64,000 bases of DNA from assembly GCF_029543125.1 (NCBI RefSeq), contig NZ_JARQWW010000001.1, forward strand, positions 310,001 to 374,000, written 5' to 3'. The DNA is from Caulobacter segnis (GTDB lineage: Bacteria > Pseudomonadota > Alphaproteobacteria > Caulobacterales > Caulobacteraceae). The position numbers were made by a program, and so were the translations under genes. The notes below the pieces were generated by a model. The model worked only from the letters and a program-made list of their open reading frames with translations. It ran no database searches and was not told the DNA's origin. Shown here one piece after another: positions 27,801 through 30,048 of this stretch (position 1 is its first letter; each line of letters starts with the position of its first letter).

Positions 27801-28256
27801 TCAACGGTCTCCGATTTGGGCTGTCGGCGGCACAGCCCTGGCGCTCCACCGCTTGAAGACCCCCCAGAAGATGGCGATCACGACCACCCAGTAGGTCAGC
27901 TGCAGCGCCGTCAGATAGGTTGGCGGCCAAAGCGAGCCAGCGGAGAACGCGAAGACCACATGGATGGCGACCGCGACCAACTGAGCTCCAGCGGCGACGA
28001 CCAGCCAGTGCTTGTGGGTGCGGAGCCACAACGCCGTCAGCAGAACCATCAGAAGGGCGTCGGTGACAGCCGTGGCGTACTGCGGCGCGGACCAGCTTCG
28101 ACTGTAGACAAGCAGGGATACGGCCCAGGCCGTAAAGGCGCCGAGGGTGGCGCCGCGTTCGGCCAACCCGCCCCGTCGCGCCGAAAGCCCGCAGGCGATC
28201 AGCAGCAGCACGATCCATAGGATCGACGAAATCAAAGCAATCAAAGCAGCCCCCAT
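27801..28256 (-). CDS. Hypothetical four-helix membrane protein
   Basis: A 151-residue protein I do not recognise. Hydrophobic stretches lie near residues 4-24, 38-56, 65-80, 84-105 and 118-137, so four or five membrane helices are likely, with a short basic C-terminal tail. The codons are strongly G/C at third positions, which supports coding. It is the last gene of a leftward run of small unknown genes that starts with the LuxR-type HTH frame at 29470. No strong ribosome site precedes the ATG at 28256. Confidence 0.65.
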   Translation of the reverse strand: MGAALIALISSILWIVLLLIACGLSARRGGLAERGATLGAFTAWAVSLLVYSRSWSAPQYATAVTDALLMVLLTALWLRTHKHWLVVAAGAQLVAVAIHVVFAFSAGSLWPPTYLTALQLTYWVVVIAIFWGVFKRWSARAVPPTAQIGDR

Positions 28257-28298: not shown

Positions 28299-28649
28299 TC
28301 AGGCCGCCTGCTCTTCGCCTCGCGCTTGAACCGGCACTTGACCGAAGTCAGGCTTCTCGGTCGGCCCGAACGCCACGTGTCCAAGGCCGACTTGGCGCTG
28401 GGTCGCCTCGAGCTTCTTATGCAGGGTCCAAAGCTTGGCGCGAGCCTCGGTGAGCAGGACGGTCACTTCACCAGCCGCTTCCAGCATCTGCTGTCCGTGA
28501 GCGATGCTCAGCCCCGCGCGAGACCTCGTGGCGGGAAAACGCGACATGACCGCAGCCACGCTGGCCAGCGAATTGTCGAGCGCTTCTTCGCCAGCGAAGA
28601 GGGCGGCGGCGATCTCAAGAGCCGCAGCCTCACGAATATCCATGCTCAT
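28299..28649 (-). CDS. Hypothetical helical protein
   Basis: A 116-residue protein of unknown family. The sequence is mostly helical: MSMDIREAAALEIAAALFAG, LDNSLASVAAVMSRFP, and AAGEVTVLLTEARAKLWTLHKKLEATQ. It ends in a polar, charged tail. AAGGA lies 8 bases before the ATG at 28649; a second ATG two codons later is also possible. It follows the membrane-helix end of the upstream frame by 35 bases and probably belongs to the same operon. It has no signal peptide or membrane segment. Confidence 0.7.
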   Translation of the reverse strand: MSMDIREAAALEIAAALFAGEEALDNSLASVAAVMSRFPATRSRAGLSIAHGQQMLEAAGEVTVLLTEARAKLWTLHKKLEATQRQVGLGHVAFGPTEKPDFGQVPVQARGEEQAA

Positions 28650-28684: not shown

Positions 28685-29470
28685 TTAGGGTCGAGCGGGC
28701 CACTCGCAGACGGACGTGGCGACGCAGAGTCGATTGAGGATGTTCAAGGCGCCTGAGGTCGCCGCCAGCAGAAGCACCAGCGCGATCGCCGCGGCCGCCA
28801 AGACGCCGAGCTTGGCGATGAGGCTCAGGTCATCGGCGCCTCCGGTCCGTCCTCGAGCCCCGCCGCGAAGTCCTGATCCAAGGCGCTGTGCGCCACGACC
28901 AGAATGTTCTGCAGGAGAAGCTCGGGGGTCATGAACGGCGCTTGCTTCAGCACCGCCGCCAAGGCTCCCCTGACCACCATCTCGTGGACCGGCGTATGGG
29001 TATGATCGAGCAGGACCTCCTTCAGAGCCTCCCAGTCGAAGACCGGAAGCGGCGGAGCCTGGGTGACCAGACCGCTCCACTCCTCCCGCAGCCTCTGAAG
29101 TTCGCTGCGAAGATACGTCTCCATGGGATTTTCCAGACCCGTCCGATTCGGCATGCGCCCTCACGTCGCCACCCGGCGATGGGAAATGGGCGAGACCGGA
29201 TTGGGCCAGTGCCATCGGGTTGGATTGCAATTCGATTGCACCGTCCGGCGCACCTTCCGCAGCAGCGAGAAACCGCGCCGCCTCAAAACGGTCGGCGGCG
29301 CCGAGCACCTGCTTGGCCCGCACCAGACGCTTGTCGATGGTCGATTTCGACAGGTCCAGCCGACGGGCGATCTGCTTGGAGCTGTAGTGCTGATAGACGA
29401 GCCGGAGGCATGCGCGCTCGCCTTCGGTCAGCCGAGCGATGCGTTCAAGATCGGGGCGCGTTGACGCCAT
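28685..29470 (-). CDS. LuxR-type HTH frame with C-terminal membrane helix (central part overlapped)
   Basis: The open frame is 261 codons. Residues 1-70 form a LuxR/FixJ-type helix-turn-helix (LTEGERACLRLVYQHYSSKQ, then IARRLDLSKSTIDKRLVRAK, then QVLGAADRFEAARFL). The last 45 residues contain a membrane helix (LGVLAAAAIALVLLLAATSG) with good codon use. HTH-linker-TM proteins of this kind are known in Caulobacterales and sphingomonads. However, the middle (about 105-215) is Gly/Ser/Arg low complexity and overlaps a better-looking frame at 28825-29124. The real products could be one protein, or an HTH protein plus separate peptides. GGAG sits 6 bases before the ATG at 29470. Confidence 0.6.
   Translation of the reverse strand: MASTRPDLERIARLTEGERACLRLVYQHYSSKQIARRLDLSKSTIDKRLVRAKQVLGAADRFEAARFLAAAEGAPDGAIELQSNPMALAQSGLAHFPSPGGDVRAHAESDGSGKSHGDVSSQRTSEAAGGVERSGHPGSAASGLRLGGSEGGPARSYPYAGPRDGGQGSLGGGAEASAVHDPRASPAEHSGRGAQRLGSGLRGGARGRTGGADDLSLIAKLGVLAAAAIALVLLLAATSGALNILNRLCVATSVCEWPARP
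28825..29124 (-). CDS. Hypothetical 99-residue protein in a frame overlapping the HTH gene
   Basis: The frame starting METYLRSELQRLREEWSGLV has a natural amino-acid mix, amphipathic helices and G/C-rich third codon positions, unlike the overlapping frame. It ends ...EAPMT. Segments VFDWEALKEVLLDHTHTPVH and MTPELLLQNILVVAHSALD look like a compact helical domain. I do not recognise the family. An alternative ATG at 29154 is preceded by GAGG. Its TGA overlaps the point where the other frame resumes good coding (CTGA), so translation of the three segments may be coupled. Confidence 0.6.
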   Translation of the reverse strand: METYLRSELQRLREEWSGLVTQAPPLPVFDWEALKEVLLDHTHTPVHEMVVRGALAAVLKQAPFMTPELLLQNILVVAHSALDQDFAAGLEDGPEAPMT

Positions 29471-29494
29471 CGCCATCTCCGATTGTGAAGCTTG

Positions 29495-29619: not shown

Positions 29620-30048
29620 ATGCACGAGACCGCGCACAAGGATGATCGGACGACCGCCGACCCCGTCGACGGACATGTAGGCGCCCGCATCCGGCAGGTG
29701 CGGCGGGCCCGAGGCGTGAACCAGGAGCAGCTCGCGGAATCGCTCGGCCTCACCTATCAGCAGGTGCAGAAGTACGAGCGGGCAGCCAATCGGGTCAGCG
29801 CGTCCAAGCTCTATCAGATCGCCCGCCTGCTCGAGACGCCGGTCAGCGCCTTCTTCGAAGGCCTCGAGGCGACAGACGCCAAGTCGCCAGACGTGCCGCC
29901 CGCGCCTGACCTGACCGCCTTCCTGCAGACCGCGGAAAGCAGCGACATCGCGCTGTGGTTTCCGCAGATCCGCACGGCTCGCCAACGCAAGCGCGTGGCC
30001 GAGCTGATCCGCTCCATGGTCGAGGACGAGCCGGAGCCCCGCGCTTAG
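29620..30048 (+). CDS. XRE family transcriptional regulator
   Basis: A 142-residue protein. A Cro/CI-type helix-turn-helix spans about residues 20-78 (VGARIRQVRRARGVNQEQLA, ESLGLTYQQVQKYERAANRV, SASKLYQIARLLETPVSAFF). The C-terminal segment ends with RQRKRVAELIRSMVEDE, a pattern common to alphaproteobacterial regulators of this size. It may read the tandem repeats in its own upstream region. Its stop interlocks with that of the convergent amn gene (TTAG). The target genes are unknown, but the divergent small-gene operon is a candidate. Confidence 0.88.
   Translation: MHETAHKDDRTTADPVDGHVGARIRQVRRARGVNQEQLAESLGLTYQQVQKYERAANRVSASKLYQIARLLETPVSAFFEGLEATDAKSPDVPPAPDLTAFLQTAESSDIALWFPQIRTARQRKRVAELIRSMVEDEPEPRA

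Follow-up and report, generated by a model that had tools for sequence, protein, structure and literature searches.

Two coding signals within one open frame

The locus described here raises the question of why the coding signal of a putative regulator gene leaves its reading frame partway through and later returns to it, although that frame is nowhere closed. The locus lies on the minus strand of the window, the 64,000-nucleotide stretch of Caulobacter segnis DNA that was analysed, and all positions below are those of the window. The outer frame, A, begins with an ATG at 29476 (a second in-frame ATG is at 29470), remains open throughout and stops at 28685; as the preliminary description had it, this one frame extends from an N-terminal LuxR-type helix-turn-helix, which Pfam recognises, to a C-terminal membrane helix, which AF2 predicts. 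A second frame, B, is nested within it, and two small genes, D and E, follow. The features are:

28685..29476, minus strand: frame A, the outer gene, 263 aa, with helix-turn-helix, tether and C-terminal membrane helix
29255..29449, minus strand: N-terminal helix-turn-helix of A, residues 10-74 (Pfam; AF2)
29125..29254, minus strand: part of the A tether ahead of the METYL start of B, containing the alternative B start ATG 29154
28825..29124, minus strand: frame B, the nested gene, from its METYL start ATG 29124, 99 aa, in the +1 frame relative to A
28825-29154, minus strand: frame B with the alternative start ATG 29154, 109 aa
28825..29124, minus strand: the bases of B as read in frame A, a sequence-neutral tether predicted to be disordered
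28825..28827, minus strand: TGA stop codon of B, within the juxtamembrane D-D-L of A
28706..28822, minus strand: membrane helix region at the C terminus of A (residues 219-257 form a helix in AF2)
28299..28649, minus strand: D, a small downstream gene, found behind A/B in 124/125 main-set loci
27801..28256, minus strand: E, a small membrane protein downstream of D (read by eye)

Along the minus strand of the locus, codon-position G+C tracks A at first, B next and A once more. From 29461, in the windows over the helix-turn-helix, G+C at position 3 of the A phase is 0.75-0.88; it falls to 0.33-0.38 from about 29101 to 28847, where position 1 of A (position 3 of B) has a G+C of 0.78-0.88, and it is back to 0.78-0.90 in the windows at and past the TGA of B. 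This plot, which had been proposed as a check, gives the A to B to A shift as first described, with the signal moving to the other frame at about 29124 to 28825 and returning at the TGA; the original coordinates and description of the locus are correct.

Four explanations had been listed for such a pattern: overlapping genes, coupled reinitiation, programmed frameshifting, and two compensating indels. Long cellular overlapping genes are hard to prove from a single genome. Indeed, when the codons of B were shuffled synonymously in this window alone, frame A stayed open in about 34% of trials, and thus one genome proves little. The 172 distinct loci assembled below allow a comparative test of both frames, and dual coding is the only one of the four possibilities to survive it, both frames being kept across relatives. 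We consider it highly probable that the locus is a same-strand nested gene pair, in which A encodes a helix-turn-helix, a tether and a membrane helix, and B a separate folded protein.

Collection of related loci

Relatives were sought with the sequence of B alone, so that the state of frame A had no influence on the choice of loci. B was found in 52 of 101 genomes (its own included), all 52 belonging to the genus of the window, of which 61 genomes were examined. A profile built from 22 B sequences gave matches in 55 of 398 genomes of the Caulobacter order, confined to 3 of 59 genera and to a single family (Caulobacter, Phenylobacterium and one third genus of Caulobacteraceae), with up to three matches per genome. 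The genome of the window itself carries a second A/B copy on contig 4 (locus L002).

The first set comprised 64 loci, the second 80 of 89 confirmed relatives, and the third 40 loci in which B is strongly diverged; the remaining 15 places were also analysed, eight of them being duplicates and seven new. Counting loci with the same last 250 nt of A as duplicates reduced the 144 loci of the first two sets to 126 distinct loci, the main set, on which alone most controls were computed. Because L226 duplicates a main-set locus, the third set holds 39 distinct loci, and the total is 172 distinct loci (126, 39 and 7), which are related to one another.

Frame A is kept open through B

Frame A was open through B in 64/64 loci of the first set, 80/80 of the second, 39/40 of the third and 15/15 of the remaining places, while the third frame was open in 0/64 and in 1 locus of the first and second sets, respectively. 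This amounts to 126/126 distinct loci in the main set and 171/172 overall, L190 being the exception. The comparison of homologous loci for indels had been suggested as a way to expose a sequencing error, and this count argues that there is none. A codon-position signal that switches and returns could also come from a pair of compensating indels in this genome or from faulty assembly. The same architecture, however, recurs with the same open frame in the relatives, the second copy L002 included, which excludes such errors as an explanation and leaves this reading with a vanishingly small probability.

Since side frames are frequently open in high-G+C genes, we used matched controls from the same loci. 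The -1 frame of D, trimmed to the length of B, was open in 58/124 loci; over the helix-turn-helix region, the same side frame was open in 17/123 (L018, L025 and L059 were omitted from the helix-turn-helix controls because they have no motif in frame A). Synonymous shuffling of B leads one to expect 15.8 to 17.7 open loci in the first set of 64. The joint chance of finding A open is about 10^-14 to 10^-16 with 24 greedy representatives at 80% amino-acid identity, and 10^-3.3 to 10^-3.8 with 7 greedy representatives at 50% identity.

The wobble positions of B bear on the same point, as a T at a B wobble position before GA, AA or AG creates a stop in A. Such a stop-making T occurred at 0/2078 places in B in the main set, compared to wobble T at 749/6480 of the other places in B, and to stop-making T at 106/1613 places in D and 238/2302 in the helix-turn-helix region. 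It was likewise absent from the third set (0/494; L190 was left out of this count because its frames are broken) and from the 7 further loci (0/103). Judged by these sequence comparisons, the openness of frame A across relatives decisively exceeds chance.

The two ends of A accompany the open frame. A helix-turn-helix was found in the same open frame A in 123/126 loci of the main set, 39/40 of the third set and 14/15 of the remaining places, and a membrane helix near the end of A in 163/165 distinct loci of the main and third sets and 15/15 of the remaining places, or 170/172 distinct loci with L190 and L193 as exceptions.

A few loci depart from this arrangement. L018 (the same as L068), L025, L059 and L239 keep A open through B yet have no helix-turn-helix in that frame; two of them, L018 and L059, have it cut off ahead of the start of B. 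These four may reflect errors in sequencing, or else genuine recent truncations by which the helix-turn-helix is released from its membrane anchor. In L190 the frames are broken past B and the membrane helix falls in the third frame, and this break too may be a sequencing error or a real truncation. L193 has a B-like stretch, and its frame A has no recognisable helix-turn-helix or membrane helix.

Protein selection acts on B in the overlap

We sorted the changes in 43 disjoint close pairs by their effects on B and on A. B is under strong protein selection, with dNN/dSN of 0.30 and dNS/dSS of 0.26 over the 43 pairs. For the overlapped segment of A, dSN/dSS was 1.17 (bootstrap 0.84-1.76) and dNN/dNS 1.34 (1.11-1.65), so that no amino-acid selection was detected; the class of changes synonymous in both frames was small (18 changes). 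At the B-synonymous rate, 59.9 B-synonymous changes that stop A were expected, and one was counted; we read this single case as a codon with multiple changes because neither member of the pair has a stop in A there.

These ratios also bear on the reading in which A alone has a function and B happens to be open by accident. Both ends of A are well conserved, as this reading would have it; but selection in the overlap is seen on B and is not detectable on A, and AF2 gives a confident fold for B and none for the same part of A, which makes an incidental B extremely improbable.

The wobble rate was 0.150 in the overlap and 0.229 and 0.224 in the flanks. We considered amino-acid constraint on A as the cause of the lower rate, and the 43-pair analysis does not support it. 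Since the rate lies under that of the flanks with no amino-acid selection detected on A, some further constraint may be at work. Gly makes up 22% of the overlapped part of A, Ala 16%, Arg 11% and Pro 10%.

Frame A crosses the stop codon of B

The A codon that spans the stop of B encodes Leu in 125/126 loci, and the base preceding this stop is C in 121/126 loci, compared to 35% at B wobble positions. The commonest end of B is ATG ACC TGA, which in A reads as an N/D-D-L juxtamembrane motif. This Leu and the exclusion of stops are the basis on which we find that the outer frame appears to be selected for translation through the overlap.

Reinitiation had been among the proposals for the locus; one form of it would be a membrane helix translated separately from what precedes it. 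From 30 nt ahead of the stop of B to the membrane helix, frame A has no ATG, GTG or TTG in 116/126 loci; separate reinitiation is thus unlikely, and the membrane helix is most readily understood as belonging to A. The same count weighs on a reading with three separate genes, namely the helix-turn-helix, B, and a small membrane peptide with its own start, in which the open frame A would be a by-product of high G+C. A -1 frame that is open by chance over 100 codons is indeed common at high G+C, as in D, and a start codon for the membrane segment is present in 10/126 loci. In the rest it is absent, however, and neither the missing stop-making wobble bases in B nor the Leu kept across its stop codon fits three independent genes, which we therefore regard as very unlikely.

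Programmed frameshifting, also proposed at the outset, would have ribosomes leave the helix-turn-helix frame for B and then return, or pass over from B to the membrane helix, giving a fused protein. The three coding segments do abut, and B stops exactly where the membrane segment starts. On this reading, though, A need not remain open through B, yet it does, and frameshifting gives no reason for the exclusion of stops from A within B. Moreover, phased slippery heptamers of the form X XXY YYZ are scarce and not enriched near the end of B (3/126 loci, compared to 1/126 in mid-B), and a possible start for B with a ribosome-binding-like run of at least 4 bases ahead of it is found in 106/126 loci by a loose test with no control. 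Frameshifting is thus highly improbable.

According to Schrader et al. (2014; PMC4117421), no more than roughly one in four C. crescentus genes has a ribosome-binding site of this kind. B may be initiated by coupling, from its own ribosome-binding site or on its own internal transcript. A sigma-70 promoter scan, which does not cover all Caulobacter promoters, found 0 internal promoters, and Rfam gave no match around the locus at the gathering threshold. Ahead of B, the A tether (window about 29200-29250; alignment columns about 120-145) carries a short stretch conserved as PPPIASGSD, VLIxSGQD or a related sequence; it may be a motif of the protein or a DNA element serving the expression of B.

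Domains and predicted structures of A and B

A, whose helix-turn-helix is of the LuxR/sigma-region-4 kind, matches PF08281 (38.7 bits) and PF00196 (33.2 bits), both above cut-off; the latter is the GerE domain, the LuxR/GerE helix-turn-helix, with a cut-off of 23.5. Two familiar classes were considered for A and rejected. It is not a classical LuxR or NarL regulator: its helix-turn-helix is N-terminal, with matches in residues 7-70 and none to a sensor or receiver. Nor is it an ECF sigma factor, as region 4 alone among the sigma models matches in Pfam and region 2 gives no match there; the sigma70-ECF model scores 24.5 bits, below its cut-off of 42.9, and covers model positions 115-161 of 165.

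The AF2 model of A, made with 39 A sequences, has a mean pLDDT of 96-98 for residues 11-70 and of 80 for residues 71-80. Residues 81-210 have a pLDDT of 46-52 and nearly no secondary structure, and are predicted to form a disordered tether, which is followed by a helix at 219-257 with a pLDDT of 77-91 along most of its length. From the domain to the membrane helix, the tether spans 140-191 residues in the 123 Caulobacteraceae loci that were measured. On the basis of these domains, A is probably a membrane-tethered transcription regulator.

B, modelled in its 109-aa version with 63 B sequences, has five helices, a mean pLDDT of 88.4 and a pTM of 0.62. No Pfam family matched B at E 1, and nothing in Pfam, NCBIfam, PHROGs or the PDB sequences was better than E 0.02. 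With the model as query, Foldseek gave no match down to the E 0.001 threshold; the highest Z from VIA-align, 6.0, lies inside the helical background. A search of plasmids and phages with the B sequence of one relative (L031) found none.

Downstream genes and a related arrangement in another order

D lies behind A/B in all but one of the 125 main-set loci that extend far enough past A to show it, one further locus being too short downstream to count. E-like genes were seen by eye after D in L165, L168 and L227. Several other arrangements were observed around these genes. In L166 and L167, from two genomes of the third genus of the family, D-like genes stand in tandem and the regulator is not directly adjacent. 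On contig 11 of the genome of the window (G000; L173), a third D-like gene is followed by an E-like membrane gene, with no A/B in the stretch that was fetched. Upstream of A, at 29620-30048 of the window, lies a divergent gene that by eye encodes an XRE-like regulator, and the start of a gene resembling it is found at the end of L002, downstream of the second A/B copy.

D was also found in 14/118 genomes of another alphaproteobacterial order, which we take to be Sphingomonadales. At 12 of the 14 D loci there, a regulator like A, with a helix-turn-helix and a C-terminal membrane helix, has D downstream, the pattern seen in the window locus and its relatives; in one (L168), the E-like gene is past D as in the window. 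These regulators, however, are encoded in a single frame, and their linkers have 54-94 residues, compared to 140-191 in Caulobacteraceae by a slightly different measure. The B profile that matches 55 genomes in the Caulobacter order matched 0/118 genomes of the other order at E 0.01. Some side frames of these regulator genes are open for up to 448 nt, so that B is excluded there and not every nested frame.

Taken most simply, these sequences point to the regulator with D as the older arrangement, B having been acquired later, inside the regulator's linker, in Caulobacteraceae. The gain may have come by insertion or by overprinting, and B may also have been lost outside Caulobacteraceae.

A model for the nested pair

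The sequence comparisons show that the pair is conserved, that stops are excluded from A and that B is selected at the protein level; where A is overlapped, no selection on its amino acids can be detected. In the model that we favour, the nested pair, frame A would be translated into one continuous protein with a cytosolic helix-turn-helix, a flexible tether and a C-terminal anchor in the inner membrane, whereas frame B, translated from its own start codon, would give a separate protein of about 100 residues with a helical fold. B would occupy the tether region and end where the juxtamembrane motif of A begins. The overlapped DNA would be shaped by B, with A demanding only that no stop arise and that its final codons in the overlap spell the juxtamembrane motif with Leu at its end. 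Both proteins are probably made in this strain. Given that B and A occur nearly inseparably, with the doubtful L193 as the sole exception among 172 loci, we infer that B works with A, D and E; in the simplest case it would bind to the regulator and modulate it.

A fuller account, to which we would give an even chance, is that in Caulobacteraceae an existing helix-turn-helix-linker-membrane regulator gained B nested in its linker, so that the same DNA would serve as a new gene for a folded protein and as an entropic tether of indifferent sequence. B would be the regulator's own partner, one locus would encode a membrane switch complete in itself, with two products linked through the bases they share, and the overlap would be older than the split of Caulobacter, Phenylobacterium and the third genus.

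Such a division of labour, in which one frame specifies a folded protein and the other a tether that needs only to be open, suggests a route by which a gene can, with little conflict, be born or housed inside a linker that is disordered. Why a gene remains nested also becomes a testable question, by relocating B outside A. It also exposes an uncharacterised protein family and a regulator system in the genus of the model organism Caulobacter.

Comparison with known overlapping genes

The pop gene, antisense to ompA in E. coli, is reported as an overlapping gene in bacteria (PMC7103648). As in A/B, one stretch of DNA gives two proteins; pop and ompA are antisense, whereas A and B are on the same strand, and the outer frame here is a tether with no detectable amino-acid selection.

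A closer parallel is CCNA_00832 of C. crescentus, for which the relevant passages of Schrader et al. (2014; PMC4117421) report a full CDS of 804 nt and an inner CDS of 360 nt in the +2 frame, the latter from an internal transcript start, with peptides shown for both frames. In a related Caulobacter with a 4.0-Mb genome (G317), A and B have 804 and 363 nt with their stops, resembling the 804 and 360 nt given there, and in a 26-kb stretch of that genome, A/B is the only open reading frame of 801-807 nt that holds a nested one of 357-363 nt. The gene order does not match in the same way: CCNA_00832 sits between beta-galactosidase (00830) and the flagellin FljN (CCNA_00835), while A/B of G317 is about 15 kb from flagellin genes, and by counting genes we would expect the tag of A/B to be near 00822-00824. 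Because length and frame agree and gene order does not, we consider it probable, though unproven, that CCNA_00832 is A/B of this family.

In PMC4551563, the hypothetical gene CCNA_00822 (CC_0781) is among the genes affected in a cspC mutant, with a value of 0.10; its tag is near the place expected for A/B and D, and it might be part of this operon.

CCNA_00832 was absent from the other open-licence PMC papers that were searched, and among the open-licence PMC matches listed, we recognised no prior description of the conserved A/B pair besides the C. crescentus case. The passages on CCNA_00832 give no domain, conservation or function for it.
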